Virus record (IMG/VR): IMGVR_UViG_3300012925_000008
Span: 1-37,877 of that record
Strand: one strand, 5' to 3'
DNA length: 37,877 bases
Source: a virus
The translations under genes and the position numbers were made by a program. The notes under the pieces were generated by a model. That model made no database searches. It worked only from the letters and a program-made list of their open reading frames with translations, and was not told the DNA's origin. Shown one piece after another: positions 13,041 to 31,212 of this stretch; position 1 is the first letter of the stretch; each line of letters starts with the position of its first letter.

Positions 13041-13041
13041 G

Positions 13042-13707
13042 CTAGTGATATGTTGCTGCTGCGGTAGGACCAGATGCAGATGCTATTGCACTGAAAGAGG
13101 CGTTGGTGGAGATAACTGTCCAATCGGCAGCAGCCGACGACCCAACGGTTAAATTTTCAGCGGGCGTTTCTGTTGAACCATTGAAATTTGCACCCCCATG
13201 ATTGACAGAAAATAAAAAATCACCGGATGTTACATTGATGCTGGCGGTAGTTCCATTTCCAGAGCCGGTATGTTTAGCTAAATTCGTATTCAAATTATTT
13301 AGAATCCAGACAAAGACGTCGCGAGTTTGAAATGCGCACGATATGCAAGACAGTACTACATTCTGTACGCCTGATCCTACGGCAACAAGCCCGCTGAATA
13401 TGTATGCTGAGTTTGACGGAGTTACTGCAATATCCTGAATCAAAGGAATGCTGTTTACAGTAACGGTGTACGTATCGGTTGAGGTTACTGATGAGCCGAC
13501 TACGATATATCTGGTTGCTGATGCTGGTCCAATATCGATGGGGAATGTTGCTGCTGTACTAGCACCAGAGAACGTACCTGACCCAGCAAAGCTATAAGAT
13601 GGAAGAGCGCCTCCCGGCGCCCCCTTCCCCGCCCCCGTCAACGGGACTTGCGCGCAGGCGCTCCAGCTAACCAGCAGCGCGAAGATGAGGGATGTGATGC
13701 GGAGCAT
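13042..13707 (-). CDS. exported beta-rich surface-like protein
   Basis: I choose ATG 13,707 because it puts a Sec signal peptide (LRITSLIFALLVSWSACAQ) at the start; earlier starts lie inside the preceding gene. The 221-aa product continues with VPLTGAGKGAPGGALPSYSF, then about 180 residues of Ser/Thr/Gly/Ala-rich strands with two Cys (LSCISCAFQ), like an adhesin or spike domain. The first 40 or so codons are GC-rich and the rest AT-rich, a sign of a recombination junction. Function unknown. Confidence 0.65.
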   Translation of the reverse strand: MLRITSLIFALLVSWSACAQVPLTGAGKGAPGGALPSYSFAGSGTFSGASTAATFPIDIGPASATRYIVVGSSVTSTDTYTVTVNSIPLIQDIAVTPSNSAYIFSGLVAVGSGVQNVVLSCISCAFQTRDVFVWILNNLNTNLAKHTGSGNGTTASINVTSGDFLFSVNHGGANFNGSTETPAENLTVGSSAAADWTVISTNASFSAIASASGPTAAATYH

Positions 13708-13717
13708 GGATGTAGGC

Positions 13718-14320
13718 CTATTGTTGTACATACGTGATATTGCCGGCAACTAGCGACGTGCCGGACTGCAACAGACAGAGCGCGGATGCTGCCGTAGTGA
13801 CGCCGACCGACCCGTTTCCGCTGCCCTGGGTGAAGCCGCCATTGGCCGTCAGGGACATACCGCTGGCGGCCGTGGTCGAACCCCAGATCGCATGCTGGGC
13901 CGCCGCGCAGGAGCCGCCCGTTCCGTCGATGAAGCTCAGCTTAATCGCCGTATCCGTGATGGCCGAAATCGAGCAAACGTAAATCACGGTCGATCCAGAC
14001 AGAGCGATGAGGGAGACCGGACCCCCGGAGCTGGTCGAGAACGGCGCGTTGAGCTTGATCTTGGAATTGCAGGGGTCGTCGCTGACATAGCCGATACGGG
14101 CGGTGCCGGCGACCACGGGCGCGATCAGATCGGCATGGATCTGGCTCGCCGTATCGGCATCAATGTATGTCTTGCAGTTGCCGTCCGCCGCCGTGGCCGA
14201 ACTCAGCGCCGCGGTGCCTCCCACGCTATCCAAGACATTCAGCGGGATCTTGGCACACACAGCGAACGCGTTCGTGGCAAAGAGCGATAGCGCCAATGCC
14301 AATAGGACTTTCTTGATCAT
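13718..14320 (-). CDS. exported cysteine-containing protein, IYVC family
   Basis: A 200-aa protein with a clear Sec signal peptide (IKKVLLALALSLFATNAFA, cleavage after FA-x or AFA) and AGAGGAT 8 nt before the start. The mature part has the pattern VIYVCSIS..., GSCAAAQHAIWGS, GNGSVGV and ALCLLQSGTSLVAGNITYVQ. The same order of Cys and aromatic residues occurs in the gene at 14,522-14,959, so the two are paralogues. I know this domain from phage surface and tail-associated proteins. Paired Cys suit folding in the periplasm. Confidence 0.65.
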   Translation of the reverse strand: MIKKVLLALALSLFATNAFAVCAKIPLNVLDSVGGTAALSSATAADGNCKTYIDADTASQIHADLIAPVVAGTARIGYVSDDPCNSKIKLNAPFSTSSGGPVSLIALSGSTVIYVCSISAITDTAIKLSFIDGTGGSCAAAQHAIWGSTTAASGMSLTANGGFTQGSGNGSVGVTTAASALCLLQSGTSLVAGNITYVQQ

Positions 14321-14333
14321 CAGCGTGATCCTC

Positions 14334-14522
14334 TCAGTGGATAAGGGGGATGTATTGGGAATTGCAGGCGACGTTGAAGATCAGGCCGGTGGGCGTGCAG
14401 GCTCCTCCACCACCGCCTTTGTGGCCTGGCATCTGGTTCGCCGGCGACATGATCCAGATCTGGGCGTGTGCCGTTACGGCCAGTGCGGCCAATATCGTGA
14501 AGGCGAGAAGGGCGCCGCGCAT
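14334..14522 (-). CDS. 62-aa exported peptide
   Basis: The product starts with a Sec signal peptide (RGALLAFTILAALAVTAHAQ) with likely cleavage at AHA. The mature part is about 42 residues, has a Gly5 run and two Cys (GGACTPTG, FNVACNSQY) and may form one disulfide. The gene is in ATGA overlap with its upstream neighbour. Function unknown. Confidence 0.55.
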   Translation of the reverse strand: MRGALLAFTILAALAVTAHAQIWIMSPANQMPGHKGGGGGACTPTGLIFNVACNSQYIPLIH

Positions 14523-14959
14523 CAGAATTGCGTGTAATAGAGGATGGCCTGCACGGCCGTGCCTGCGTTGGTCAGGATGCAGACATCCTTCCCGGTCGGC
14601 ACTGGCTTGATGCCGGTATAGACCGGGAGATGGTCGATCTCGCCAATCTGGGCCGTGAGTTGGAATGCAGGCGTGATCGCGGTCTGGCCGGTATCGCAGG
14701 GATTGGTGACCTGCGTCCCATAGACGAATTGCACGCTGACCGTGCCGCCCGGCATGATGTTCCAGCCGCAGACGTAGATGCCCTTGGTTGATGTGCCTGT
14801 AATCAGCTTCGTCGCGCCGCTGGTCGACGCGTCGTAATTGGCCGATTGATTGCAGCCGAACATCTGGTTTGGCGAGACACCCTGCGCCTTCGCAGGCAAC
14901 GAGCAGAGGGAGGCAATACAGCCAAGCGCCATGGCGCCTGCAAGCAGGATTTTTCGCAT
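14522..14959 (-). CDS. exported cysteine-containing protein, IYVC family
   Basis: ATG 14,959 has GAGGA 6-7 nt upstream and gives a Sec signal peptide (RKILLAGAMALGCIASLCSL, then PAKAQ); the ATG at 14,971 overlaps that ribosome site. The 145-aa product has NQMFGCNQSANYD, then GIYVCGWNIMPGG, VQFVYGTQ, NPCDTGQTAITPAF, DVCILTNAGTAVQAILYYTQ. This order matches the protein at 13,718-14,320. It probably forms a disulfide-bonded beta domain outside the cytoplasm. It could be a surface decoy, adhesin or virion part; the role is unknown. Confidence 0.65.
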   Translation of the reverse strand: MRKILLAGAMALGCIASLCSLPAKAQGVSPNQMFGCNQSANYDASTSGATKLITGTSTKGIYVCGWNIMPGGTVSVQFVYGTQVTNPCDTGQTAITPAFQLTAQIGEIDHLPVYTGIKPVPTGKDVCILTNAGTAVQAILYYTQF

Positions 14960-14994
14960 GTTTGTCCTCATCAGTTTGAAAGAGTGCAGGTCGC

Positions 14995-15381
14995 TTAGGT
15001 CATGCTGCCCGGCAGAAAGCAGCGAATCTGATTGAGATGCCCATCCCGCCGATATGGCCAGACCATGGTCGGCCCGGCGCGGTTCGGTCCGTCGACTATG
15101 GCGCTGTCGGGCACATCGACCCATTCGCCCTCAAGTCGGACGCGGTAATGGCCGTCCTTGGTTTCCCAATCGACATCATCGAGCCGCAGTGCATCGGAGC
15201 CATCGCAGCAGGGCGATTTGATCTTGCTCGAGAGGCCCATGAACCAGCCGTCGAGTTCGGGACGGGTGATGTTGTGGGCGCGGGCCGCGTGCCAGGCGAA
15301 CATGCTGGCCACGACGGCGAAGATGATGATCAGAAAGCGGCGGATGGTGCGCGGGCTGTCATTGTGTGGAGCGGGCCTCAA
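14995..15381 (-). CDS. exported protein with TTG start
   Basis: A 128-aa product with a basic N-terminus (RTIRRFLIIIFAVVASMFAW) and a hydrophobic segment ending in HAARA, a Sec signal. The mature part has SPCCDGSDALRLDDVDWET, a short Cys-Cys Asp-rich module, and a basic C-terminal part (WPYRRDGHLNQIRCFLPG). The start is TTG at 15,381 in TTGA overlap with the upstream stop; no ATG or GTG is available before the hydrophobic segment. I know similar small exported proteins from rhizobial genomes. Function unknown. Confidence 0.6.
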   Translation of the reverse strand: MRPAPHNDSPRTIRRFLIIIFAVVASMFAWHAARAHNITRPELDGWFMGLSSKIKSPCCDGSDALRLDDVDWETKDGHYRVRLEGEWVDVPDSAIVDGPNRAGPTMVWPYRRDGHLNQIRCFLPGSMT

Positions 15382-15797: not shown

Positions 15798-15891
15798 GTC
15801 ATAGATTCCAACCGCTTGAAGGTGTCGCTACGCCTTACTGCGGCTGGGCCAGCACACCGATCGCGCGGGCCGCTCGCTTCGTCGATAGGTC

Positions 15892-16572
15892 TCAGAAGTG
15901 ATAGCTGAATCCGAACGTCCCGCGGTTTTCCGTGCTGACGATCGCCGGCACGCCGGGAATGGCGGACACATTGGTCGCGCCGTACTGTGCGTTCAGGTAA
16001 TCGACATCGATCGTGAACCGGCTGTTCGGCACGAAGAAATGAGCCGCTGCGCCTGCGCAGTAGCCCGTCAGCGCGCCGTTCTGGCATGCACCGATCAGGA
16101 CCGTCGGGACGGCGGTCGCGAGCGGGCCGGGCAGGATGATCGGCGCGATGTTGAACATCGTGGCCAGATTGCCGCCGAACTCGACGCCTTCGAAGGCGAA
16201 GAACTTGTTCGACTGCGTGAGCGTCAGGCCGCCGAGATTCGGGTTCTGCTGGCCGACGGCGTAATCCCCTTTGGCCTTCACGCCGAGCCAATAGGTGCCG
16301 TTGTAGAACTGGTATCCGCCGTTGATGCCCATGTAGGTACCGTTGGCGTTCAAGCTCGCCAGATTGATCACGTTCACGCCCGATCCGGAACCCGATAGTT
16401 CGGCGCCCAGGAAGAAGCCGGAACAGCCGGTGGCATCGCAGGGTGCCTTCAGGGGGGCAAAGGCTGGCGCCTTGATGATCGGGGACGGAGTGGAATTCAC
16501 ATCAGCGGCCATCGCCGCCGAGATCATTCCAAGGCCTGCCATGAAGGCAAGCAGTGTCGTTCGCAGTTTCAT
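15892..16572 (-). CDS. outer-membrane beta-barrel protein, Omp25/31-like
   Basis: ATG 16,572 has AGGAG about 10 nt upstream and opens a Sec signal peptide (KLRTTLLAFMAGLGMISAAM, then AADVN). The 226-aa product has a short proline-rich part, then about eight alternating strands (GFFLGAELSGSG, YMGINGGYQFYNGTYWLGVK, FFAFEGVEFGGNLATMFNI, RFTIDVDYLNAQYG) and ends GTFGFSYHF, a C-terminal Phe that fits insertion by the BAM complex. This is the layout of rhizobial opacity/Omp25-type barrels. A phage-borne barrel might change the host surface (compare Lom of lambda), which is inference. Confidence 0.72.
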   Translation of the reverse strand: MKLRTTLLAFMAGLGMISAAMAADVNSTPSPIIKAPAFAPLKAPCDATGCSGFFLGAELSGSGSGVNVINLASLNANGTYMGINGGYQFYNGTYWLGVKAKGDYAVGQQNPNLGGLTLTQSNKFFAFEGVEFGGNLATMFNIAPIILPGPLATAVPTVLIGACQNGALTGYCAGAAAHFFVPNSRFTIDVDYLNAQYGATNVSAIPGVPAIVSTENRGTFGFSYHF

Positions 16573-17036: not shown

Positions 17037-17390
17037 TCAGCCAGCCTTCGCGATGGCGCTGACCGCGGCGCTCGCGCCTTCGGCCGGTGCGATCTTGTTC
17101 TGCGATGGATCCATTGCGATCGCGGCCAGTGTCGGATTAGCTTGCGCATTGACCTTGATCGGATCGACGCCGGGCATCGCCGCGACGGTCCGGACCATAG
17201 CTCCCTGGCCGGAGAACATCGTCACAAGGCCGCCGAAGAACATGTTGCCGAGGCCTGCAAGCGAGACGAGCTTGTGGGTAGCGACGGGCCCGAACAGATC
17301 GGTCAATTGCGTGCCGCCGCCGATGATGACGCCATTCAACAGGACGATGATTCCGAGCCACTGCAGGGGCGTCCAAGTACGAGGGTCCAT
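17037..17390 (-). CDS. holin-like membrane protein
   Basis: I choose ATG 17,390, which follows the upstream stop by four bases; the longer frame begins inside that gene. The 117-aa product has a hydrophobic helix at about residues 9-25 (LQWLGIIVLLNGVIIGGGTQ) and a second weaker one at about 41-58 (LVSLAGLGNMFFGGLVTMF), then an Ala-rich soluble tail. Two short helices and a location directly downstream of the endolysin fit a holin, which opens the inner membrane for the endolysin. No family is certain. Confidence 0.5.
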   Translation of the reverse strand: MDPRTWTPLQWLGIIVLLNGVIIGGGTQLTDLFGPVATHKLVSLAGLGNMFFGGLVTMFSGQGAMVRTVAAMPGVDPIKVNAQANPTLAAIAMDPSQNKIAPAEGASAAVSAIAKAG

Positions 17391-17394
17391 GCGA

Positions 17395-17574
17395 TTATTT
17401 CCTTTGCAAATGAGGGATATAAATTCTCTGGCACCACGCACCATCGGAATGCCTCTGCATGTAGAAGCAGTCCGCCTTCGACATCGGTCCCAGCATCGAG
17501 ACCGGCTGCATCGCCACTTCCGGATTGAACGACATCAGGTAGAACAGCAGGAGCGGGATTTCGGCGCCGTTCAT
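17395..17574 (-). CDS. 59-aa hypothetical protein coupled to the endolysin
   Basis: The gene starts in an ATGA overlap with the endolysin stop. The start is hydrophobic (IPLLLFYLMSF), and the rest has two Cys (ADCFYMQRH, GAWCQRI). It could be a small secreted or membrane-associated lysis accessory, or be made with the holin. No family recognised. Confidence 0.5.
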   Translation of the reverse strand: MNGAEIPLLLFYLMSFNPEVAMQPVSMLGPMSKADCFYMQRHSDGAWCQRIYIPHLQRK

Positions 17575-18212
17575 GACAGGATTCCTTTCGCGATCGTCGG
17601 ATCGATCGCAATCATCATCGACAGCAGCGGCGCGCAGCCTTCCTGCGTGTCGACATATTTCGGGTTGTAGACGCGGTCGCGCACGAACTTTCCCGACACA
17701 TATTGATCCGATCCGGACCAGACATAGGCCGACGGCACCCCGCGGATGGCATAGCCGAGGCCGTTGTATTCCTCGAACAGCGTCAGCACGCCGCCGATCG
17801 TCCATGTCGTCCACTTCGCGGCGAACGGCGGGCAATTGACCAGCGCGTCGACCGCAGCGCGCGTCCACGCGTCATGACCCGGCGTAATGTCGCCATCGTG
17901 CGAGAGGAACGGCCCACGGCCGGCCGGCACGTTGTGGGAGCGCTTGTTGAGCGCATCGCCCTGGCCGAGCTGGAAATCCCAGTGCGGCGGGCCGCCATAT
18001 TCCCGTTCCGCGACGATCGCGATGAACCACCATGGCACTGGGCTCATCTTGAGATCGACCAAGCGATCGGTGACGCCCTCGAAGCGGGCCTTGGCACCGG
18101 GATCGCACAGCCGCAGCGCGGTCGCGTGGAACGCCGGAATCTTCGCCGCAGTGACATGCATCACGGCCCAGCGGTGCGCGTTCGCGCCTTCCAGCGCGAG
18201 GATATTGGTCAT
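17571..18212 (-). CDS. endolysin, phage lysozyme-like
   Basis: A 213-aa protein; ATG 18,212 with CGGAG 8 nt upstream is preferred to TTG 18,236. The fold pattern is that of phage lysozyme-like endolysins: VPWWFIAIVAEREYGG with a candidate catalytic Glu, HWDFQLGQGDALNKRSHNVP, PFLSHDGD, AWTRAAVDAL, then LTLFEEYNGLGYAIRGVPSA and VWSGSDQYVSGKFV, which I know from rhizobial phage lysins. No signal peptide, so release needs a holin, and a holin-like gene follows two genes later. It would cut the glycan strands of host peptidoglycan at the end of infection. Confidence 0.75.
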   Translation of the reverse strand: MTNILALEGANAHRWAVMHVTAAKIPAFHATALRLCDPGAKARFEGVTDRLVDLKMSPVPWWFIAIVAEREYGGPPHWDFQLGQGDALNKRSHNVPAGRGPFLSHDGDITPGHDAWTRAAVDALVNCPPFAAKWTTWTIGGVLTLFEEYNGLGYAIRGVPSAYVWSGSDQYVSGKFVRDRVYNPKYVDTQEGCAPLLSMMIAIDPTIAKGILS

Positions 18213-18520: not shown

Positions 18521-19545
18521 GTGTGATAGTTGCAACTTCCGAACACCGTTCCGGTCGTGCCGAATTGTGCCGCAGTGATATTTGCCGACGTCGTCGCACT
18601 TCCTTGAAACAAGCCGATCTGGCTTGTATTTGGATTGATAACGCCCCCGACGAAGACATTCGCCGCCGTGAGTCCGGTCACGGTATAAAACCCGATGGTG
18701 CAGCTTGCAAAATCGTTCGCCGTATTTGCTGAGGTCGCCGGGAGTCCGGAAATGGAGACGTTCCCGGTCGGACTTCCGGTCCAACCCGAAAGGGTGATCG
18801 AAAACCTCGCGGTAATCTGTCTCCCGATCTGCTCGTAGGATCCAACACGGAACGTATAGGCCGGGGTTCCTACCGTGGCCGTCGTCGTAATCGCTGGCGT
18901 CCACGCCGCTGCGGTATAGGTCGGAAAGCCGCCGGCGCCGTTGGCCGCGACGCCGAGCGCCGTGGCGACACCGGTCCCGAGGCCGGAGACTCCGGAGACC
19001 GGGAGGCCCGTCGCATTCGTCAGCGTGGCGGATGAGGGTGTCCCGAGCGCCCCATTAAAGGTGACGAAAGCGCCGGCTGATCCAACCCCGATCCCGAGCG
19101 CGGTGGCTACATTGGCGCCGAGCCCGGTAATACTGCCGATCGCCGGCGTGCAGGTGGCTGCGGAAATCGCCGTGATCAGGCCCTTGGCGTTGACCGTCAG
19201 CGCGACGCAAGCGGTGACCGAGCCAAAGCTGCCGACGTTGGCATTGACGGTATTGAACGTGAAGGCACCGGCATTCGCTAGCGTCAGATCGCCCGACGGC
19301 GTCTGTGCGGCGGCGAGGCCGGAGATCTGCCCGATCAGGATCTTGCCCGAGGCCAGCGCCAAGCTGCTGCCACCTCCGAACGCATTCTGCACGAAGGTGG
19401 TCGACGCCGCCTTGTTGGTGGTGTCGCCGTTCGGCGCAGTGACGACCACGCAATTCGGATTGGTCGGCCCGCAGCCCTGCGCCGCCGCTGGCGCGAGGCT
19501 GGCGCACAGCAGACCGAACGCGACGAGGAGCGCGCGGATCGTCAT
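18517..19545 (-). CDS. exported tail-fibre-like protein
   Basis: A 342-aa protein with a Sec-like leader (TIRALLVAFGLLCASLAPAA, then AQG). The body has fibre repeats: NTVNANVGSFGSVTACVALT and VNAKGLITAISAATC, a pattern common in phage tail fibres, then repeated GLGANVATAL / GLGTGVATAL segments. The last 140 residues (YTFRVGSYEQIGRQITARFS, TLSGWTG, VSISGLPATS) resemble fibre tip domains. It lies after the main fibre gene in an ATGA overlap with the 118-aa gene. A signal peptide on a fibre is unusual. Confidence 0.7.
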   Translation of the reverse strand: MTIRALLVAFGLLCASLAPAAAQGCGPTNPNCVVVTAPNGDTTNKAASTTFVQNAFGGGSSLALASGKILIGQISGLAAAQTPSGDLTLANAGAFTFNTVNANVGSFGSVTACVALTVNAKGLITAISAATCTPAIGSITGLGANVATALGIGVGSAGAFVTFNGALGTPSSATLTNATGLPVSGVSGLGTGVATALGVAANGAGGFPTYTAAAWTPAITTTATVGTPAYTFRVGSYEQIGRQITARFSITLSGWTGSPTGNVSISGLPATSANTANDFASCTIGFYTVTGLTAANVFVGGVINPNTSQIGLFQGSATTSANITAAQFGTTGTVFGSCNYHT

Positions 19546-19898
19546 AGCGTCGCGCTCGATGCGATCGTGAAGGGATTGCCGCTATTGGCCGCAGCCGCTG
19601 CCAGCCACGCCCCGGCGACGCCGTCGCCCGTAAAGGGCAGGATGCCGCCCGGGAACACCGGCCAGTTGCCCGGATTGGGGCCCGCCGTCAGCGCATTGCC
19701 GGCCGAGTCGATGGCCTGGCAGACATAGATGATCTGCGATCCCGGATTGGCGAAGGTGACCTTCTGGCGCTGCGGATTTGCCGCCAGCACTTGGACCGAT
19801 CCCACTCCAAGTGAGACCCCCAGCGTCCCGCCATTGATTGCTGGCGTGATCATGTTCTGCTGGTTGAGCGTCAGTGCGCTGATGTTCGCGTTAGCCAT
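19542..19898 (-). CDS. small virion/surface-like protein (118 aa)
   Basis: The product has no signal peptide. After a helical start (ANISALTLNQQNMITPAING) comes a beta part: QVLAANPQRQKVTFANPGSQ, IIYVCQAIDSAGN, WPVFPGGILPFTGDG, AWLAAAAANSGNPFTIASS. This NPGSQxIYVC...GGILPFxGD...GNPxTI pattern is one I know from phage proteins next to fibre genes, so it may be a fibre-associated or decoration protein. It is ATGA-coupled to the fibre-like gene. Confidence 0.55.
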   Translation of the reverse strand: MANANISALTLNQQNMITPAINGGTLGVSLGVGSVQVLAANPQRQKVTFANPGSQIIYVCQAIDSAGNALTAGPNPGNWPVFPGGILPFTGDGVAGAWLAAAAANSGNPFTIASSATL

Positions 19899-19927: not shown

Positions 19928-20212
19928 TTATTGTTTGATTCCGGCGGCGATCGCGTCGATATTCGACTTGTGTTTGCTGCGGTCGGCCCAATCGAATTTC
20001 TGGCCATCGTGTTCGTCGACGATTTTCTGGCAAGCTTCAAAGCCCGGCATCCATTTTTGGCCAGGTACATATTTCGGACCGGTCGCATGGTCATGATACC
20101 GATGCACGCACCACACATAGCCTTCGCGGATATCGCGTTCGGACGAAATCGCCTGTTCCGTGCATGAGGCCAGCAATGTTGCCAGGATCAATCCAGCGGC
20201 GGCATTTTGCAT
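19928..20212 (-). CDS. small lipoprotein
   Basis: A 94-aa protein from ATG 20,212. Residues 2-15 (QNAAAGLILATLLA) and the following SC form a lipobox (LLASC), so the mature protein is a lipid-anchored 77-residue protein. It has Cys and His in a soluble part (GYVWCVHRYHDHATG, FEACQKIVDEHDG). It could be an outer-membrane lysis or exclusion factor; it is not proline-rich like most o-spanins. No ribosome site is clear and the gene follows the fibre stop closely. Confidence 0.55.
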   Translation of the reverse strand: MQNAAAGLILATLLASCTEQAISSERDIREGYVWCVHRYHDHATGPKYVPGQKWMPGFEACQKIVDEHDGQKFDWADRSKHKSNIDAIAAGIKQ

Positions 20213-20226
20213 GCGCAGGATTGCGA

Positions 20227-22674
20227 TCAGTTGATCTGGTTCGGCATCGTGTTGATGCCGTTCCAGAAATCGAACGTACCGGCCGTCGGCGTCAGGTTCG
20301 GTGTTCCTGTCACCATGACGAACATGCCGTTCTTGTCGAGGTAGAGCGGGCCCTGTCCGGCCATCGGCACCGCCGAGACACTGGTGATCGCCTGCGGCCC
20401 GAAAATGAAGCCAGCGATGCTCGATCCGGTGATCAACGTCGCCCCGACCGTCGTTGTGGTCCATTCGTTCTTGGCTTCGACAGCGCCCAGCGATCGATCA
20501 TAGCAGCCCATGCTCAGCGCATCGAGGTCGAGGTTGGTGAACCCATAAAGCGTGCCAGCGACCACGGTACCGAATTGCACGATCAGCGGCGTGAGGAGCG
20601 GCGGATTGCAATGGCCATCCGCGCGGATATTCTCGAACGAGTTCTGGTGCAGTTGGCTCTGCACGAGCGATGGTACGAACGCGCAGGTCGGAAGCGCCCA
20701 GTACAGCACGTCGCCGGAATTGCCCAATTTGTTCAGATTGACTGTAACGGTCGTCGCGTTCTGGGCGATCGTTCGTGTCACACTCTCGAATTGATAGCCG
20801 CCGAATGCGACCCCGGTCCCGTTTGCGCTGGTGCTCGTTGCCGAATTATCGGCGATCGATATGCTCCACGTACCGGCACCTCCCTGCAGGGTCTGATTGG
20901 CGACCGTGCCGCAGGACATGGTCTGTCCCTGAAAACGCCGGAGCTGGTTGGCGGGTACGGTCCACGTAATGAGTTCAGGGCCGGTAACGCCGCCGCGCGT
21001 GAACAAGGTGCGGACCGCGCCGCGATAAGCATGTGCGGCAAAATCATCCGGCGCAAAGATAAGCGACGTCGTCTTAGTGAATCCATCTGGTCCTAACCCG
21101 CTCGTATTACCAACGGTATCGCCGCGGATGACCGGAAACAGGAACACAGGGCTGCTGCTGGCGGGAGAAACCGCGCCCATCATGCCCGCCACAGTGATCG
21201 ACGTGTTCGGGACCACGGCGATGACACGCGCGCCGGCTATATAGCAGGTGTTAATGCTTACGGTGCAGCCGGACGCTGTTCCAGCGGTCACGGTACATAG
21301 TACGGTGCCGGCATTGCAACTGATGAAACCGGCCCCTCCCCCCGGAAAGCCCCAGAACCCGTCATAGGCGTTCGTGGTGAAGGATGATCCGGTTGCTACG
21401 ACGATGATGTCGCCGACCGCGATCTGCTGGGTATTGGCGCAGGTAAAGGTGGGATTTGCGTTCGTCGTCTGGAAAGATGAGCAACTTGCCGGCGTCTGCT
21501 GGGCGGTGCCAGTGGCATTCTGCTTGACGTTGAGGACGATACCGGTGACCTGCTGGAAATTGGCGTTTGGCAGCAGGTTGTCGACGGTCCCGACCGACGC
21601 ACCCGGATAATTCGAGGTGAACGATATCCGCCAATTGCCCGAGGCTGCCGCGTCGGTGGTGATGAAGGCCCAGCTATTCAGCAGCAGCGTGCCGGAAACG
21701 CCGGACGTGAGACCTTCGATCGTGTCGTGGCTGTCAATGACCAGCGTGACGGCGCCGCCGCTGCCGAGCACATGGATCCAGAGCCCAAACCCGTTCCACA
21801 GCGTGTTGGCGCGCGGCAGCGTGAAGTTGATCGGGCCGGTCGCGATATAGGTCTGGCCACAGAACGAGGCCGTCACCGCCTGATTGACGGCGACCTGGGT
21901 CAGCGTCGAGCCGACGTCGAGATTGCCGGGAGCGCTCGCGTTCGACAGCAACTGGCAGTTCGGCGACAACGTCGCGGCACCGCCAAGCCCGAACGCCGCG
22001 CGGCCTGCGGCGAGGCTGCCGGCATTGACCACTGGCTGCATCGCCGAGGAAATGATTCCCGTCGCCGGAATCACGCCGGCGATCACATTGCCTTGGCTGT
22101 CGAACGCTATTCCGGTATTGGCGCGCCGGGCGGCGGTCGGCAGCACCAGATTGATGGTCGGCGGATCGACGATCGGCGCGGTGATGGCGCGAACAAGCTG
22201 GTCGGAGTTCTGCTGATCCAGCATCACGCCGAGGTCGAGCCCGGTTTCGGCGCCATTGCCGAGCGCAGTCAGCGAAGTCTTGTTCTGCAGGCTGACTGCC
22301 TGCGTCAGCGGCAGCGTGCGGAAGATCGTCAGACTGGTGCCGTTGGCGATCGGCGAGCCGCCCGGATTATAGGTGACCGTGCCGCCGATGCCCCAGATCG
22401 CGCCCTGCAGCGGCGGATTGAGCGTGATCTGGTATTGCGTGGTGCCCGCACCTTGCGTCAGCGCGGTCTGGTTGCCGGAGGCGTCGGTAAAGATCACACT
22501 GATATAGGCCGACGCCACGCCGACGAAGCTGAAGGCGAACTGCGTCTGTGCGCCATTGCCGAGCACGGTCGTCTTGTTGACGCTCGAATTGACGGTCGCC
22601 TGCGTTGAATATGGCGCAAGCGTCGGCGCGCCCAGCATCAGCGCGATCAGGCATCGGGCGATCCATCGCTTCAT
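20227..22674 (-). CDS. tail fibre protein, T7 gp17-like N-terminus, with signal peptide
   Basis: I choose ATG 22,674 (AAGGA 7 nt upstream, ATGA overlap with the preceding stop) over GTG/ATG 22,713. Residues 1-27 (KRWIARCLIALMLGAPTLAP, then YSTQA) are a classic Sec signal. Residues 28-170 are the phage T7 tail-fibre N-terminal domain that joins the fibre to the tail: NKTTVLGNGAQTQFAFSF, ISVIFTDASGNQTALTQGAG, YQITLNPPL, GTSLTIFRTLPLTQ, LDLGVMLDQQNSDQLVRA. The rest is beta-rich receptor-binding body with many Cys. Length 815 aa, longer than T7 gp17. The signal peptide is unexpected in a virion protein. Confidence 0.85.
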   Translation of the reverse strand: MKRWIARCLIALMLGAPTLAPYSTQATVNSSVNKTTVLGNGAQTQFAFSFVGVASAYISVIFTDASGNQTALTQGAGTTQYQITLNPPLQGAIWGIGGTVTYNPGGSPIANGTSLTIFRTLPLTQAVSLQNKTSLTALGNGAETGLDLGVMLDQQNSDQLVRAITAPIVDPPTINLVLPTAARRANTGIAFDSQGNVIAGVIPATGIISSAMQPVVNAGSLAAGRAAFGLGGAATLSPNCQLLSNASAPGNLDVGSTLTQVAVNQAVTASFCGQTYIATGPINFTLPRANTLWNGFGLWIHVLGSGGAVTLVIDSHDTIEGLTSGVSGTLLLNSWAFITTDAAASGNWRISFTSNYPGASVGTVDNLLPNANFQQVTGIVLNVKQNATGTAQQTPASCSSFQTTNANPTFTCANTQQIAVGDIIVVATGSSFTTNAYDGFWGFPGGGAGFISCNAGTVLCTVTAGTASGCTVSINTCYIAGARVIAVVPNTSITVAGMMGAVSPASSSPVFLFPVIRGDTVGNTSGLGPDGFTKTTSLIFAPDDFAAHAYRGAVRTLFTRGGVTGPELITWTVPANQLRRFQGQTMSCGTVANQTLQGGAGTWSISIADNSATSTSANGTGVAFGGYQFESVTRTIAQNATTVTVNLNKLGNSGDVLYWALPTCAFVPSLVQSQLHQNSFENIRADGHCNPPLLTPLIVQFGTVVAGTLYGFTNLDLDALSMGCYDRSLGAVEAKNEWTTTTVGATLITGSSIAGFIFGPQAITSVSAVPMAGQGPLYLDKNGMFVMVTGTPNLTPTAGTFDFWNGINTMPNQIN

Positions 22675-22862: not shown

Positions 22863-25800
22863 CTAGTGAACGGGCTCGCCGCGGAGCTTCGCGGTCTTGG
22901 CCGCGTTGGCCTTGGTGATGATGTCCGGATTCTGCATCAGGATGATCGACCGCGCCGATTCCCGGGCGCTGGTGATGATGTCCTTGATCTTCTCGGACTG
23001 GACCTGTTTCGGCATCGACGTGAAGCCCGGCGTGTTGACCAGTGCGTTCATGCGCATCTTCGCCATCCGTCCGCCGGTCCGGGTGAAATCGTCATATTGC
23101 TGATCGGAGAGTTCGACACCGCGGATCTTGCGTTCCAAGCGTCCGGGGTAATAGCCCGCATCGAGCAGCGCCTTGGTGGCGGGATCATTGTTGACGGCCG
23201 ATGGTCCGAGCGCAGTGTGGCTTTCGATCGGTTCGCCCCAGATGTCACGGACCGGAAATAAGCCGCGCGACATGCCAGGAATATGATTCCGTGCCACGTC
23301 GAGCATGGTGCGTACCTCGCGGCGATAAGGATCGGACAAGTTCGTGATCTGCGAAAGGCCAACCGAGAATGGAATGAAATCGGCCGCGAGATTGCGCAAA
23401 TAGCGGCCACCATCGCGGTCCCAGTGCCGGGCCGCGTCGATGAAATTCGACAGCCCCTTGGCCCAACTCTCGTCGGCGACCACTTCGGCAAACCCGAATA
23501 TAGCCCCTGCCGCCGCCTTAGTTAGGCCCTCCTCGTTGAGCGCGTGACCGGCCTCATATATGTCAGCGGTGCCCGCGATCAGCGGACCGAGACCACCCAA
23601 ATATTTCCGATACGGAACATAGGATTCGCCGACCTTGATGCTGTAAGGTTTCCATCCCGTCATTTCCTTGATCGCAAGTTGCTTCGGATCGGATGGGCCG
23701 CCACCAGTCAGAATCGCCTCGGACGTCAAACCGATTACAGCCGTTGAAAGACCGATACCAACCGCAATGCGCGCTCCTTGCATGTGTTGCGCAACGGGGC
23801 CGTTCTTACCCATCAGGTTGTCGCGCACAGCCTGTGAGGCGAAAGGTCCAATGATCGTTCGCTCGTTGAAACTCTCGTGCAGAATATTGGCGCCGACCTG
23901 CATGAACGGCATGACAATCTTAGCGAGGATGTTGTTGTTGACCGCTTTCTGCAGATGATACTGCGCCGTACCGAACTGGGCTCTTTTCATCAAGACCATT
24001 TTCATGGCCTCGTCGTGCGCCGCTTCTATTTCGGAAGTCGGCGGCGACTGCGTAAAATCCGCGATCTTGGTATTGAAGGCGTCGGAGCCCGGTTCAAGCC
24101 CGTCTTTCATCGCCGATCGAAACGCGCGACGCGCGATCTCTGCTTCATAGTTCATGCTATAGTGAACAGTATGGATCGCGGTCACCGCACGCGATGGCGT
24201 CTCGATGACATAGCCTAGCATACCCGGAATTGCCTGCGGCCGATGCGCCGCCTCGATTTGGCCAATCAAGCCTTCGACGTCGCCTTTCATGAAAGGTACA
24301 CCGGTTTTCAGCGCCGTCATTGCCGGGCCAAACCCATCCCGCATACCGCGCACCATGCCGTAGAGCTGCGCGCCGACTTCGCCAAAATAGACTCGCTCGC
24401 CCGGCGGCAAATCGCGGAACGCTCCATAAGCGGCAGCAACGCTAGTATCGACGGTTGACTTGAATATCTGAGTGACCGTGTTGCCGATGTCATATCCAGC
24501 GTGGGTGATCGGACCCGAGATCAGATTGTTGATGAACCACGACAAGATACCCTGTCGTATTTTCTGCCAGCGCGTCAGGTTCGCCTCGGCCACCGCTTTT
24601 GATACCTGCTGCGGTGTCTCCATCATCGCGAGCAGCGCGCCCTCTTCCTTCATCTGGTAGAGTGTCTTGCCTTGCGTGTTGCGCAGGAATGCGGAGAGAT
24701 CGGCCGCTTCCTTTGATCCGCCGAGATCACGGAAGGCACGCAGCGCCCGGCCGGCTTCTGCGGTCAGGCCCGAGACCTGCTCCTGGATCATCAAATGGCG
24801 CGCGCGGGCCTCGGCATACGCCACCACTTCGGCCTCGGTCCCGCCGGCGATCTTCGCTGCGGCATCGCGCACGGCGCCCGCCGACTGGATCAGCAGTTTG
24901 CGCGCGGCCACGATCTGTTCGGCATTGAACGCCTCGCCCAGCTTGCGTTCGGCCAGTTTGCCGGCATCCATGCCGAGGGCATCGGCGAGCTTCAGGACCT
25001 CGGCATCGGATACCCGGCCGCGCGTGATCGCATTGTCATAAGGCGACAATTCCTCCGCGGTCGCGCGGATCACGGCATTGACGTCCTCGCCGGTGCCAAG
25101 ATTGTCCAGCCGGATATTGCCGGCCTTGTCGATCAGATGGGTTTCGGATTTGGGGAGATCGGTGGTCGGGCTTAGGCGCTCTTGAGCTTCGCCGCGAGCT
25201 CGTGCAGCGCCGCCGCCCTGCTCTGCGGGTTGTACTGACGCAACTGCGTCGCGCGCGCCTGATGCATCTGGACGTTCATCAAAGGTGTCCCAGCCTGGCG
25301 CCGCGACATCCCAGCCGGGGACGTCTTCGGTTCGCTCGGGGGCACCGCGCTCGATTTCGGCATCGTCGGCTTCAAGGGCGAGTCTTTCGATGATTTGAGC
25401 CGGATCATTTAATCCCTCTTTGTGGTATAATTCAAGGGCGCGCGTGCGTTCCGCATCGGATAATTCGGCACCGCCGGCCTGCTTGACGGTGTCGTTGATG
25501 CCTTCGAGAAAACTGTGTTCGGCGTGCGCCTGTTCGGCCGGATCGGTCGGCCGTTCATGTGAAGCAACCTTGCCCCGCACCTCGGCATCGATCGCGTCGA
25601 GGAAATCCGTGATCGATGCGCCTTCCGGCAGATGGCCGGCCTCGATCGCGGCTTCGCGGGCGCGGTCGATCGACATGGTCGCGGATCGTCCGGCCTTGCG
25701 CGCCGCGCTGGATAATTGCTTCGGCGTGCGGATCAATTGGCCGTGGCCGGGAATGTAGTGGTTCTTGGCGCCGAGCGATTGCTTGAGATCGGCGATCAGC

Positions 25801-28277
25801 GCATCGCTGGCGCTGATCCCGCCGCGCGAGGCGATGAACTGCAGGAGCGGGGTCTGGGGTTTGTTTAGGCGCTCTGACTCTTTGCGTGCGCCAGCGCTTT
25901 CACCCGCAGCTTCACCTCCGCCCGCGCGCTTCGCTCCAGATCCGCCAACAACTTCAGTTTCTCCGGCGATTGCCCCGGATGCATCTGCATGACCTGCAGA
26001 TTGCGCACCTCTTGGCGCACGCCTTTCAGCTTCCGCTCCAGTGTCGGTAAGTCGGGTGTCATTCTCCTTGCCTTCTACCAGATTTTGAGCGGCATGGGAA
26101 TCCCGTTCTGCTTCGATGGTGGAAGCAACCTGATGGCTGCGCTCGGGCGGCGTGGTTGCCGCCAATTCTTCATGAGTCTCTGCAAGGCCACCTTTGGTTT
26201 CACGCTCCGGCGCAATTACCGTCTTTTCCGGCGTTTCGGTTAACAGCCGGTCGAAAACCCCGCGAATATCGTCCGAAATCGGGGCTTTCAGCGCTGCAAC
26301 GGTCCGGTAGATCGTGGTCAGCCACGCCTTGAACTGGGCGAACACCCGGGCCAGCGCGCGCGACGGCGCGCGGCCCTCCATCATGTAGGTCTCGAAGCCG
26401 CGGGCGAATTTCTCGTGGTGGCGGGTCTTGATGCTATCAGGCGAATCAATCCCGAGCCATTTCATAACGGTATCTGAATCCGCCCGGAGACTGGCCGGCG
26501 CTTCTTCGTCCCGCGCATCGTCCAGCATCCGATCGAGCCAGTCATGGCCGGTCTCATGGATGAAGGTCGAGGCGTCCGCTTTCTTCATCAGCGTGATCGT
26601 GTTCCGCGCGTCCTCGCGCAGCCGGATACGACCATTGCGCGTCGCGGTCTGTGCCAATTCCATCTCGCGGGACGCCTCTTTCTCTTTGGCCTTCCCCACC
26701 TTGATCTCCGGCGCTTCCGCCGCATACATCTCGGCGGCTGCGCCCTTCTTGCCTTCGAACCGTTGCGCCCTCGTCTCCCAGTAGGAGGCCACGACCTGGG
26801 CCGCGGCCTGCGCCTCCTCGGCGGGCCGGCCGGCGGCAACTAGCTTCTGCGACACATCGGCGACGATCGAGGGTGCATGCGCGATCGGCAACCGCGCAGC
26901 TTCCTCCGGCGTGTCCGGCTTGATGGCCTGCTTACCGGCGAACTGGGCGCCTTTCTCCGCGCCCTTGATCAAGGCTTCGGGCTGTGAAGGTGTGGCGACC
27001 TGCTTGGCTGGCTTCGCCTCTGCTGGGGCAGGCGCCGCAACAGGTTCAGCCGCAGCGTCGCCCGCAACCGGAACTTCGCTAGGCACAGCCTCAACCGGCT
27101 TCTCTTCATGGGCTACAGCCTCTGCTGGCGGCGCTTCCGTAGCTGCCGCTTCCGGCATCCGCTCCTGCGCATCCCGATAGGCCTTCGCCACATCACCCGA
27201 CAGATCGCGCATCCGGTAGTCGGTCGACATCAGTTGTCCGCGCACCTTCGCCATATCGGCGGAATCGGCCTGCGTGTGCTCGGCGATATAGGCGTCTCGC
27301 TCGGCCACCAGCGGATCGAGCCGCGCCTGGTATTTCTTGGCGAGGCGCGGCGTGGCGTCCTGCAGTTTCTGCTCGAGATCGGCGATCTCCGGGCCATGCG
27401 GCGCGGCCTCGCGGGCGGTCTGGTCGCGCACCTCGCGGAGTTCGCTGATCCAGCGCCGGAAGGTGTCCTTCTTCTCGGCCAGCGTATCGAACTCCTGGAA
27501 CGTCTCTGGCGCGATCTGGCGGGCAACCGTGTGGATGTCCGCGGGCTCGGCGGCAGGTGCTGCTGGCGGTGCCACCGGCGATGGCGCGGCCTCCGCGTCC
27601 TTGCCGGATAGAGGTTCCGGCTTGGCCACGTCCTGCACCTTGGCGGCTTCCGCCACCGCTTTCGCTGGTTCGGCCTCAACCGGCGCCGTTCCGAAATATC
27701 CCGCCTCGCCCGATCCGATCGTATCCAGCGATTTCGCGTGCGTGACGATCTCCGGGACATGCGGAATGCCGGCCATCTGATGTAGCCCAGCCGGAAATGC
27801 CTCTGGGATCGATGCGATCTGGCGGCCGAGCGATGGTGCGCCAGCTTCGGCACCTATCTGGGCAACCGCCTCCTGTCCGCCATGAAACACGCCCGACGCC
27901 GCGCTCTTGGCTGCCAGCAGTGCCGCGACGGCGGGCCGCATCACGGCTTCGTTGGCCGCCTTGATGATGTTGCGCTGGCCCTTGGCGTAGTCGTTATAGA
28001 CGCCGGCCTTGCGCAGCGCTTCGTCGGCTTCGCTGAGCTCGGCATTGCCCGCACCCCAATCCTGCTTGAAGCCATAACCGAACGCATCAAGGACGCGCGC
28101 ATGTGAACGGCCCGGATTGGAAAAGATCATGTCCTGAATCGGCGAGACGTTGCGCACCGGCTGGTCGGTCGGCTTGTAGTCGGCCGGAAACAGCGTATCG
28201 ACGTCCTTGGCGCCGAACAGTGTATCGACGTCCGGCTTGTCCGGCGCCGCGTCTTGGCCCTGGGTGATGTCGCTCAT
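22863..28277 (-). CDS. giant internal virion/ejection protein with HETGH metallopeptidase motif
   Basis: An 1804-aa protein at the T7 gp16 position. The N-terminus has a doubled DVDTLF (residues 17-30). Residues about 200-440 are Ala/Pro/Glu-rich linkers and a coiled coil. Residues 550-580 hold a zincin-type site, ITLMKKADASTFIHETGHDW, with H574, E575 and H578, as in large polyvalent phage proteins. The last third has helical parts (GILSWFINNLISGPITHAGY, VGQVGANILHE-like segments near the C-terminus) that may form the membrane channel. It is coupled by ATGA to the protein before it. Such proteins are ejected into the host to carry DNA across the envelope; the peptidase role is inference. Confidence 0.82.
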   Translation of the reverse strand: MSDITQGQDAAPDKPDVDTLFGAKDVDTLFPADYKPTDQPVRNVSPIQDMIFSNPGRSHARVLDAFGYGFKQDWGAGNAELSEADEALRKAGVYNDYAKGQRNIIKAANEAVMRPAVAALLAAKSAASGVFHGGQEAVAQIGAEAGAPSLGRQIASIPEAFPAGLHQMAGIPHVPEIVTHAKSLDTIGSGEAGYFGTAPVEAEPAKAVAEAAKVQDVAKPEPLSGKDAEAAPSPVAPPAAPAAEPADIHTVARQIAPETFQEFDTLAEKKDTFRRWISELREVRDQTAREAAPHGPEIADLEQKLQDATPRLAKKYQARLDPLVAERDAYIAEHTQADSADMAKVRGQLMSTDYRMRDLSGDVAKAYRDAQERMPEAAATEAPPAEAVAHEEKPVEAVPSEVPVAGDAAAEPVAAPAPAEAKPAKQVATPSQPEALIKGAEKGAQFAGKQAIKPDTPEEAARLPIAHAPSIVADVSQKLVAAGRPAEEAQAAAQVVASYWETRAQRFEGKKGAAAEMYAAEAPEIKVGKAKEKEASREMELAQTATRNGRIRLREDARNTITLMKKADASTFIHETGHDWLDRMLDDARDEEAPASLRADSDTVMKWLGIDSPDSIKTRHHEKFARGFETYMMEGRAPSRALARVFAQFKAWLTTIYRTVAALKAPISDDIRGVFDRLLTETPEKTVIAPERETKGGLAETHEELAATTPPERSHQVASTIEAERDSHAAQNLVEGKENDTRLTDTGAEAERRAPRGAQSAGHADASGAIAGETEVVGGSGAKRAGGGEAAGESAGARKESERLNKPQTPLLQFIASRGGISASDALIADLKQSLGAKNHYIPGHGQLIRTPKQLSSAARKAGRSATMSIDRAREAAIEAGHLPEGASITDFLDAIDAEVRGKVASHERPTDPAEQAHAEHSFLEGINDTVKQAGGAELSDAERTRALELYHKEGLNDPAQIIERLALEADDAEIERGAPERTEDVPGWDVAAPGWDTFDERPDASGARDAVASVQPAEQGGGAARARGEAQERLSPTTDLPKSETHLIDKAGNIRLDNLGTGEDVNAVIRATAEELSPYDNAITRGRVSDAEVLKLADALGMDAGKLAERKLGEAFNAEQIVAARKLLIQSAGAVRDAAAKIAGGTEAEVVAYAEARARHLMIQEQVSGLTAEAGRALRAFRDLGGSKEAADLSAFLRNTQGKTLYQMKEEGALLAMMETPQQVSKAVAEANLTRWQKIRQGILSWFINNLISGPITHAGYDIGNTVTQIFKSTVDTSVAAAYGAFRDLPPGERVYFGEVGAQLYGMVRGMRDGFGPAMTALKTGVPFMKGDVEGLIGQIEAAHRPQAIPGMLGYVIETPSRAVTAIHTVHYSMNYEAEIARRAFRSAMKDGLEPGSDAFNTKIADFTQSPPTSEIEAAHDEAMKMVLMKRAQFGTAQYHLQKAVNNNILAKIVMPFMQVGANILHESFNERTIIGPFASQAVRDNLMGKNGPVAQHMQGARIAVGIGLSTAVIGLTSEAILTGGGPSDPKQLAIKEMTGWKPYSIKVGESYVPYRKYLGGLGPLIAGTADIYEAGHALNEEGLTKAAAGAIFGFAEVVADESWAKGLSNFIDAARHWDRDGGRYLRNLAADFIPFSVGLSQITNLSDPYRREVRTMLDVARNHIPGMSRGLFPVRDIWGEPIESHTALGPSAVNNDPATKALLDAGYYPGRLERKIRGVELSDQQYDDFTRTGGRMAKMRMNALVNTPGFTSMPKQVQSEKIKDIITSARESARSIILMQNPDIITKANAAKTAKLRGEPVH

Positions 28278-30682
28278 TGGCTTACCGGTGCGGCAGGTGC
28301 CACAGCAGCTGGCTTGCGCTTGGCCCAGCCCTGCGCAATCGCCATGTCGTCGGCCTGCTGCTTGGTGACCTTGCCGGCATGGTAGGCCGAGACGAGGTCG
28401 TCGAGCTTCTTGATGCTTGAGAAATCGAAACTATCCTTGTCCTTCGGCGTGTCATGGACCGTATCGTTGAACCACTGATCCATCGGCCGCTTGAAGTTCT
28501 TGATGATCTTGCCGACATAATCCGGACTGTCGGGATCGAGCAGTTGGGTCGGCGACTTGCCATCGCGGCGTCCCGCCTCGTAGGCTGGCAGCGCCTGCGC
28601 CATGAACTTCAGATAGAGTTCGTCGCCCTTCGGATCCTTGATGTGCAGGCCTTCGTCGGTACCGGTGATCTGGCCGCGGGCATTGCGCAGGAATTCCTGC
28701 CGCATGGTGGACTCGGCCGAGCCTTCCGGCGATTTCTTCAAATTGATCTCACCGCGCAGTTTCTCCACGCCGGCCATCGTCAGATCGCCGTTCGGGCCCA
28801 GCCGGCCATAAAGCTGGTTGTCATCCGTGATGCGTCCCGGCATACCCTGTGGCGCATGCACCATCTGGAACGCCTTGACGAAACCCGAGCCGTAGGTCTT
28901 GTCGTCCTTCTCGCCGGGATCGCCTTGCAGCTTGATCAGCCGATCCTTGGATTCGCGCGAGAGACGATCGTCGAGCGCGATGGATTGCGTCGAGAGCGGC
29001 TTGGCGTTCTGCGCGGGCGCGTAGATCTGTTTCAGGTAGTCGTTCTCGGCGGCCTCCGAGACCATCTTCTTCTGCTGGTCCTGAATGTGAATCTGCCGCT
29101 CCATGTCGGCATAGGACGCATTCTGCGCCTCGAATATCTTGTTCGTGTAGGTCATCGCGGCGTTCATCGCGAGCGGATGATCGAGCAGATACGGATCGTT
29201 GGTGATCCGCTTGATGACGTCGCTCTTGTTGGTTTCCGAGAAATCCTGCGCGGCCTGAAAGCGCGGGAATCCGCCCAGCGCGACCGGCTGGGCACCGGAC
29301 TCCTGCGTGCCATTGCCGGGAAGCGCGCCACTGGCCTTGATCGGCTGATCGTAGAAGCGCTGCGCCCACATCGCGGCGAAATCGCCTGATGAGACTGTCT
29401 CCACGCCACCCGGAAATTGCGCCTTCATCGAGGGCGTCATGTTGCCCCAGATTGCCTGCTTGGCCCAGCCGACACCCTTCTCGCGGCCTTCCACGGTCGA
29501 GACCATGTTCTGCCAGGCTGGCAGGTTCGGCTGCGATAGATGCGCGACCGCGCCGCCGATGCCCTGCTGATGGGCCAGGTAATAATCGGCTGGCGTCGGC
29601 TCGTGGCCGAGCGTGCGGGCCAGTGCATCGTGGTGTTCGGCGTTCTCCATCGACAGCGCGCGCGCCTGGGTCGTCGGATCGGTCCGGTTGGTATCATTGA
29701 TGCCGTAACGCGCCTCGAGCGCCGGTGAGAACTGCCCCAGCCCGCCATGTGATCCGCTTTGGGCGTTCGGGTTGCCACCGGATTCGATCTGAAACGTGCG
29801 CTGCACATAGCCCGGGGGCAGGTTGACGCCGCGCCCCATATAGATGTCGGCGGTCTTCTGGCCGTCATAACTGGCGGCCTGCGTCTTCAGCGCCTGTTCG
29901 ATCGTGGCACGCGAGCTCGGATCGATCCGGTCATACTGACCATGGAAGAAATCGATCGCGCGTTGCAAGCTCGTCTGCGAGCCGTCGGCGACCGTCGATT
30001 TGATGATCTCGGCGACGTTCTTGCCGCGGTTGCGTTGCACCTCGATATCGCCGTCGAGGCCTTTGTATTGGGCGGCCTGCCGGGCGTAATCATCCGAGCG
30101 CGACAGGCTCAACACGACACTCGGATTGGCGTTGATCGCGACATTGCCCGGCGTAGTAGCCGCCCCGATTGCCGCGCGGCTGCCGCTGGAGGCTGCACCG
30201 TCGGTTGCCGTGTTGGTGTCCCAGACCGATTTCTGTTGCGCAGCGTGGCGCGATGATTGCGCGTAGGCCGCGTCCGTCAGGCGTCGTCCTTCGGTATCAA
30301 CCAGTCCGGCCGTGAACGGATTGCCGGCCTGTGATCTCGTCTGCTGATGGATATCGTCGATCTGCTGCTTGAAAGTCGGCAGCGCCAGTTCGGCGTCCTT
30401 GCCGCGCAGCGTCAGGAATTTCTCCTGCGCGCTGGTGACCTGATCGGACTGCCAGGAATGCAGCTCGTTGGCGTGGGTCTGGGCGTCCTGCCTCGCCTGC
30501 ATCGTGGCGGTATCGAACCCCTGCGCATCGGCGTGTTCGATGCCGGCGCCAAGTTGCGATAACCCGCGTCCGATCGCGGCCCCGAACATGTCCGGATCGG
30601 CGTGAATCTCCTGCCGCGCGCCGGGGCCGCCGGCCGGATTGACCTCCGGATAGGGCTCGTAATTCAATGGATGCGAAGCCAT
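28274..30682 (-). CDS. internal virion protein with lytic transglycosylase domain
   Basis: An 802-aa protein at the T7 gp15 position, mostly helical. Residues 290-390 form an SLT-type lytic transglycosylase domain: YVQRTFQIESGGNPNAQSGS contains the catalytic Glu E300, then HGGLGQFSPALEARYG and later ADYYLAHQQGIGGA. The N-terminal 280 residues and C-terminal 400 are helical. On ejection it would cut peptidoglycan so that the tube can cross the periplasm. In T7 this domain is in gp16; here it is in the smaller protein. It overlaps the gp14-like gene by one base (TGATG) and the giant gene by ATGA. Confidence 0.87.
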   Translation of the reverse strand: MASHPLNYEPYPEVNPAGGPGARQEIHADPDMFGAAIGRGLSQLGAGIEHADAQGFDTATMQARQDAQTHANELHSWQSDQVTSAQEKFLTLRGKDAELALPTFKQQIDDIHQQTRSQAGNPFTAGLVDTEGRRLTDAAYAQSSRHAAQQKSVWDTNTATDGAASSGSRAAIGAATTPGNVAINANPSVVLSLSRSDDYARQAAQYKGLDGDIEVQRNRGKNVAEIIKSTVADGSQTSLQRAIDFFHGQYDRIDPSSRATIEQALKTQAASYDGQKTADIYMGRGVNLPPGYVQRTFQIESGGNPNAQSGSHGGLGQFSPALEARYGINDTNRTDPTTQARALSMENAEHHDALARTLGHEPTPADYYLAHQQGIGGAVAHLSQPNLPAWQNMVSTVEGREKGVGWAKQAIWGNMTPSMKAQFPGGVETVSSGDFAAMWAQRFYDQPIKASGALPGNGTQESGAQPVALGGFPRFQAAQDFSETNKSDVIKRITNDPYLLDHPLAMNAAMTYTNKIFEAQNASYADMERQIHIQDQQKKMVSEAAENDYLKQIYAPAQNAKPLSTQSIALDDRLSRESKDRLIKLQGDPGEKDDKTYGSGFVKAFQMVHAPQGMPGRITDDNQLYGRLGPNGDLTMAGVEKLRGEINLKKSPEGSAESTMRQEFLRNARGQITGTDEGLHIKDPKGDELYLKFMAQALPAYEAGRRDGKSPTQLLDPDSPDYVGKIIKNFKRPMDQWFNDTVHDTPKDKDSFDFSSIKKLDDLVSAYHAGKVTKQQADDMAIAQGWAKRKPAAVAPAAPVSQ

Positions 30683-31212
30683 CAGGCGCCTGACGTCATG
30701 TTCTGCAGTTTCGCATAGTTCGATCCGACCGTGCTCGCACCCGACAGCAGCGTTCCGGCCGCACCAATCTCGCTCCCCGTCGTCGCCTGTTCGCTGGCGA
30801 AGGAATCAAGCTGGCTCTGCGCCGTGTCGGAATTGGCCTGTACCTCGTCGGCGTAGGCTTTCTTCGCGGCGTTGCCGCGGATCGTCAGCGAATCCAGCAT
30901 GCCCATCGAAGCTGTGCCGGCGCGCACTTCGGCCGCAGATCCGGTATTGACATCGATCCCTGACGCGCCCTGGGCGGCCTTCTCCTGTCCAACCTTGGCG
31001 CGGGTCTTCAGGCCCTGATTCACGGCCGCGATCTCGCCGGACTGGATATCCAGCGTGCCCTGTTGCTGCGCCAGCTTGGCGTTATTGGCCGCGACCTGGG
31101 CCTTATAGGATTCGGAGGCCGAGGTGGCGGCGCCCGATTCCAATGCGCCGCCAGCGCTGACGGCCGCGCCCACCCCGCCAATGATCGCCAGCGATACTGG
31201 ATCGATGCCCAT
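30682..31212 (-). CDS. internal virion protein, T7 gp14-like
   Basis: A 176-aa protein of a size close to T7 gp14 (196 aa). Residues 5-25 form a Gly/Ala hydrophobic helix (PVSLAIIGGVGAAVSAGG), and the rest is a long helical array: SESYKAQVAANNAKLAQQQG, EIAAVNQGLKTRAKVGQEKA, GIDVNTGSAAEVRAG, then SQLDSFASEQATT. This pattern is standard for gp14-like ejection proteins, which insert in the host outer membrane. It lies between gp13-like and gp15-like genes, as in T7. Confidence 0.75.
   Translation of the reverse strand: MGIDPVSLAIIGGVGAAVSAGGALESGAATSASESYKAQVAANNAKLAQQQGTLDIQSGEIAAVNQGLKTRAKVGQEKAAQGASGIDVNTGSAAEVRAGTASMGMLDSLTIRGNAAKKAYADEVQANSDTAQSQLDSFASEQATTGSEIGAAGTLLSGASTVGSNYAKLQNMTSGA

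Follow-up and report, generated by a model that had tools for sequence, protein, structure and literature searches.

Tail fibres with predicted Sec signal peptides and paired cysteines in a group of podoviruses: a possible periplasmic route to the virion

The cytoplasm is assumed to be the place where tailed phages make and attach their receptor-binding fibres. T7 gp17, whose gene lies after the internal virion protein genes, lacks a leader and is taken to be added to virions in this compartment. Fibres of the phrog_1640 type are found in Uetakevirus (phiV10, Salmonella 66FD), Vibrio VP2, the Pelagibacter HTVC010P group and Carin1 (Dpo31). These phages have a single fibre gene in the structural region, structures have been solved (8ck1/28lx), and all fibres checked start at or near the attachment domain and have no signal peptide. 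Virion proteins made with cleavable Sec signal peptides are known from filamentous phages (pIII and pVIII), whose virions assemble in the membrane without lysis. The P22 tailspike and the T4 fibres are made in the cytoplasm without signal peptides and can join already completed particles in extracts; assembly at the time of lysis is therefore feasible. To our knowledge, no textbook tailed phage finishes its fibre in the periplasm and joins it around lysis, and no report of signal peptides on tailed-phage fibres was found in the open-access papers searched.

The stretch of DNA analysed here (the window) is a 37,877-base contig from IMG/VR for which no end repeats are reported; the phage may therefore be incomplete. 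Besides the fibre genes, its minus strand encodes gp11-like and gp12-like tail proteins, internal virion proteins and a transglycosylase, and an integrase lies on the plus strand (Table 1). Like the phrog_1640-type phages, the window has a single gene for a fibre with such an attachment domain (fibre 1) in the structural region, and the domain is homologous to theirs (about 30-36% identical). The gene directly follows those of the internal virion proteins, as in T7 and at the place where leaderless relatives keep their fibre. Unlike the fibres of T7 and of the phrog_1640-type phages, fibre 1 begins with a leader, and unlike the filamentous phages, the window phage is tailed and has holin-like and lysin-like genes.

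Table 1. Features of the window and sets of matches used in the comparison.
Feature	Position	Strand	Remarks
Fibre 1 gene, 815 aa	20227..22674 (22674→20227)	minus	signal peptide, tail-attachment domain and Cys-containing fibre body
Predicted Sec signal peptide of fibre 1, residues 1-26	22597..22674	minus	MKRWIARCLIALMLGAPTLAPYSTQA; cleavage predicted before T27
Tail-attachment domain, about mature residues 1-130, no Cys	22207..22596	minus	from phrog_1640 match, fold matches and Cys positions
Small basic His-rich ORF, 62 aa	22671..22859	minus	overlaps fibre 1 start as ATGA
Internal virion proteins (three)	22863..28277, 28274..30682, 30682..31212	minus
Small predicted lipoprotein	19928..20212	minus	MQNAAAGLILATLLAS then C, lipobox LLASC; assigned by sequence motif; between fibre 1 and the 118-aa protein
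Conserved 118-aa protein (MANAN.../MSNAN...)	19542..19898	minus	without signal peptide; between the two fibres
Fibre 2, 342 aa	18517..19545	minus	predicted signal peptide MTIRALLVAFGLLCASLAPAAA then Q; fibre-like ASTxFV motif; 6 mature Cys
Holin-like and lysin-like genes	17037..17390, 17571..18212		assigned by position and sequence; no family match
OMP-like protein	15892..16572	minus	signal-peptide-like leader MKLRTTLLAFMAGLGMISAAMA
Small leadered Cys-Cys protein	14995..15381	minus	PCCDGSDA...DVDW motif
Further late genes with signal-peptide-like leaders	14522..14959, 13718..14320, 13042..13707	minus
803-aa protein	10629..13040	minus	signal-peptide-like leader; start MMISKRKFLQNASLGVLLFVAQSS
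Fold matches of the attachment domain			8ck1, 9efk, 8i4m, 7ey9, 7boz; from AlphaFold model
Fibres with a leader (n = 12)			window, G001, G002, G003, G004, G006, G011, G019, G025, L152, L153, L162

An earlier note on this DNA described a fibre that begins with a Sec-type leader, starts at an ATG with a good ribosome site and has no later start by which the signal could be skipped. These points were confirmed, with the open reading frame lying on the minus strand. The ATG at 22674 is preceded at about 7 nt by AAAGGA and overlaps the stop codon of the upstream 62-aa ORF, so the start is well supported. M13 is the sole in-frame start within the leader, and the first start codon beyond it is a GTG at V37, ten residues into the domain. 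A small basic ORF also precedes the fibre in relatives (KLHVAKHFLQPV in L003, EDLHIAKHCLHPH in the window).

Within the leader, which is followed by mature TVNSS..., the first 8 residues carry a net charge of +3, the hydrophobic core is free of charges, and positions -3/-1 read T-Q-A. A rule-based scan for a basic n-region, a hydrophobic core and a small-x-small site, from which the signal-peptide calls were taken, scored the leader as a signal peptide with a cut after residue 26. Random leaders passed this rule in 0.4% of trials, and in 0.025% with the cut at the domain boundary. In a control, the rule was positive in 14 of 121 core-region genes (a single leadered gene lies upstream of gp12 in many phages). 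A positive score therefore does not decide the matter by itself, and what carries the argument is the shared boundary together with the cysteines. Neither a twin-arginine motif (S/T-R-R-x-F-L-K) in the leader MKRWIARCLIALMLG nor a lipobox Cys at +1 was found; position +1 is Thr in the window and Thr, or Val in one case, in the relatives.

Homology to other fibres starts exactly at residue 27 and extends over residues 27-132 for phrog_1640 and 27-212 for the cultured phages. From T27, the attachment domain matches the phrog_1640 tail protein (E 4.6e-5; relatives L152 and L153 match at E 3.7e-16 and 1.5e-14) as well as annotated fibres of Pelagibacter phages and Cobetia phage Carin1, and a profile of the close group matches the Carin1 Dpo31 structures at 1.6e-14. 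No Pfam family was found for fibre 1 at E up to 1, and hhalign of the fibre against T7 gp17 was not significant (probability below 1%). An AlphaFold model of mature residues 1-330, built from 13 homologues, is good only for about mature residues 1-97 and 230-330. With this model, the best solved Foldseek match of the attachment domain was 8ck1, the tail and fibre assembly of Carin1 (E 7e-8); next came the portal-tail complexes of LME-1 and P-SCSP1u, and the T7 gp17 N-termini (7ey9, 7boz) were matched with a probability of 0.95-1.00 and E 0.009-0.035. The label "T7 gp17-like" given earlier thus holds for the fold and fails for the sequence; judged by sequence matches, the nearest kin of fibre 1 are the fibres of phiV10/Uetakevirus, the Pelagibacter phages and Carin1.

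With the full fibre as query, nothing was retrieved from IMG/VR or GTDB, and plasmid records yielded no close relative, so that the rhizobial host assumed in the earlier note found no confirmation. Relatives were reached via the conserved gp12-like tail protein (80 loci), and a model of the fibre domain located the fibre in 29 of 43 records, in one copy each, to which the last scan added eight more. Read upstream in frame, 12 of 45 homologous fibres (window included) have a leader and 33 have none; one of the 12, L162, fails the charge rule for the n-region and was assigned by eye. The 12 leaders are 20-33 aa long, all different and with almost no common sequence. All of them end in A/T/S-x-A/S/G (TQA, AVA, ATA, ARA, ADS, AAA, AHG, AGA, AKA, SRA, AGA and ARA, with TQA of the window among the least canonical) immediately before the domain T-V/I (V-I in one), and most have a nearby proline. 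This small-x-small site coincides with the start Met of the leaderless homologues, in all 33 of which translation starts, from Met or from GTG/TTG, at the domain or close to it. The fibres of the cultured phages phiV10, VP2, 66FD, MEP301, HTVC203P, HTVC010P and Carin1 also start at or near the domain and have no leader.

A chance leader is excluded because 12 fibres carry one that ends in this way at the same boundary, and the leader of fibre 1 is shown by this comparison to be a true Sec signal peptide, predicted to be cleavable. The earlier note had asked whether the leader is shared across homologues. According to the domain tree, which requires six changes in leader presence and in which supported branches force at least five, it is a module common to relatives that has been gained or lost repeatedly within the phage group. 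Leaderless homologues mostly begin with Met-Thr, a start from which methionine aminopeptidase normally takes off the Met. The predicted cut of the leadered forms gives the same Thr at position 1. Leadered and leaderless genes would thus yield nearly the same attachment domain, which favours a cleaved leader over a retained helix.

The periplasm, not the cytoplasm, is the normal place for disulfide bonds to form, and the cysteines of the fibres point to the same compartment as the leaders. The attachment domains of the tabulated leadered fibres have no Cys, and the cysteines sit in the fibre body. Mature leadered fibres have 12, 4, 5, 2, 12, 12, 6, 16, 14, 4, 10 and 6 Cys, an even number in 11 of 12 (the exception, with 5, is G002), compared with 7 of 22 complete leaderless fibres that have any Cys (Fisher p 0.001). 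The median Cys content is 1.30 per 100 aa in leadered and 0.45 in leaderless fibres (p 0.0015). As a separator of the two classes, plain Cys content is not clean, with 11 Cys in leaderless G008, and parity and pairing perform better. The Cys pair at about 163/174 is present or absent as a unit in 13 of 13 aligned sequences, and that at about 214/246 in 10 of 10; one of these ten is leaderless G022, in which both Cys are replaced. The fibre of this leaderless sister, whose body is homologous over 221-224 residues, has lost all such Cys in that region, with 0 where the aligned leadered fibres of G019, L153 and G004 have 6, 4 and 4. An exception is leaderless G007, which keeps the 163/174 pair.

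A second predicted exported fibre gives the same picture. Fibre 2 was located in 11 phages (window included), two of which have a leaderless fibre 1, and in all 11 it has a clean signal peptide that ends in small-x-A before Q; in the window, the cut would fall between LAPAAA and QGCGPTNPNC. Mature fibre 2 proteins have 6, 12, 16, 4, 12, 10, 12, 20, 14, 24 and 12 Cys, even in 11 of 11, and no cultured phage matched the fibre 2 N-terminus. Fibres 1 and 2 predicted to be exported together gave 22 even to 1 odd Cys number, against 27 to 46 among those Cys-containing core proteins of the same phages that are not exported (p 3e-7), although relatives count as independent data points in these parity and pair statistics. 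In a tree-aware test of fibre 1, 3.8 of 5 independent pairs followed the expectation and none contradicted it (p about 0.125). The cysteines are thus even in number and co-vary as in an exported, disulfide-bonded protein, with phylogeny only partly controlled. The AlphaFold model is weak where the cysteines lie and does not resolve Cys contacts or pairing in 3D. We strongly infer from the sequences that the fibre is exported by Sec and, given Cys parity and the pairs gained and lost together, that it forms disulfides. The three internal virion proteins, unlike the fibres, have no Cys in 2,782 residues.

Fibre 1 would be exported via Sec to the periplasm, where signal peptidase I would cut before T27 and leave about the N-terminus that a leaderless homologue has after Met removal. 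The fibre body would then fold, trimerise and form disulfide bonds in the oxidising periplasm, while heads with tails and without fibres would be built in the cytoplasm. Once holin and endolysin had opened the cell, the attachment domain would dock on the tail, either within the periplasm or in the lysate. Fibre 2 would take the same export route in every relative where it was found. As a whole, this model of Sec export, cleavage, periplasmic disulfide-assisted folding and virion attachment at or after lysis seems to us rather probable. Attachment at or after lysis is the least certain part of the model; it is plausible because fibres and tailspikes of other phages add to finished particles in extracts and because holin-like and lysin-like genes are present. 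The argument that export would remove the fibres from virions is not compelling, as they could rejoin virions at lysis, and the unease behind it was justified: among the three options that the earlier note considered, an assembly that differs from T7 fits best. That interpretation was partly supported overall, and it had missed the leader in relatives, the second fibre, the other leadered late proteins and the Cys signature.

It is unlikely that the exported fibre is instead a non-virion factor that blocks receptors against superinfection, prevents re-adsorption to debris or acts as a free exopolysaccharide enzyme. Such a role would suit the signal peptide, which the comparison shows to be real, the pectate-lyase-like bodies (PF12708) of some members and the predicted export of several neighbouring late proteins, one of them OMP-like. 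However, the conserved part is a tail-attachment domain, the leadered gene is its only copy in each record, and it directly follows the internal virion proteins, as does the fibre of leaderless relatives. With a single copy per record, virions would need the exported product unless they are fibreless, which also weakens the earlier option of a surface protein.

Distinctly unlikely is dual targeting, in which inefficient export leaves a cytoplasmic fraction that folds and enters virions in the usual way, and the exported fraction serves some other purpose. In favour of this explanation, Sec handles fast-folding trimeric proteins poorly, and M13 or non-AUG starts could yield leader-shortened forms. 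Yet there is no start codon between M13 and V37, a retained 26-aa leader would precede an attachment domain that otherwise starts at residue 1-2, and Cys parity and pairs point to the whole protein being in an oxidising place.

A hydrophobic helix at the N-terminus of a virion protein could also be an uncleaved membrane or tail-binding segment, with virions assembling at the inner membrane. This option of the earlier note is disfavoured and now appears very improbable, as twelve unrelated leaders, otherwise different, keep only the A-x-A-like small-x-small site at one exact position, the domain boundary, and relatives do well without any leader. An artefact (wrong start, frameshift or chimeric contig) might be suspected for an environmental virus contig. 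Against it stand the ribosome site, the ATGA overlap and the lack of a start at the domain boundary, and the same architecture in 11 other, independent records refutes it for practical purposes.

Returning to Sec export with late attachment, these phages would be two-compartment tailed phages, in which fibreless virions in the cytoplasm and processed, disulfide-bonded fibres in the periplasm are joined only at lysis, and in which a switch between cytoplasmic and exported fibres occurs by gain or loss of the leader together with Cys pairs. We regard this general proposal as evenly balanced between true and false. If a podovirus group exports its fibres, phage host range would come to involve late assembly, oxidative folding and the Dsb/Sec functions of the host. 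One would then expect free fibre to build up outside the cytoplasm ahead of lysis, and such fibres to misfold when they are expressed in the cytoplasm by standard means. Gain and loss of the leader together with Cys pairs makes the export idea directly testable.

Other late genes of the window carry leaders as well. At least five more have signal-peptide-like leaders. No such leader was scored in any core structural or early gene of the window, and the result is a secretion-rich late cassette (10629-16572). The OMP-like protein ends in ...FGFSYHF as in outer-membrane beta-barrels; it had no match in plasmid records and perhaps serves receptor masking or superinfection exclusion. A single leadered gene also lies upstream of the gp12-like gene in most related phages (L017:6101, L019:7024, L020:6834, L021:2273, L052:6497), and export in this phage group may reach beyond fibres. 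The start of the 803-aa protein resembles a Tat signal (KRKFLQN), and leadered Cys-Cys proteins similar to the small one of the window occur in G004 and G022.
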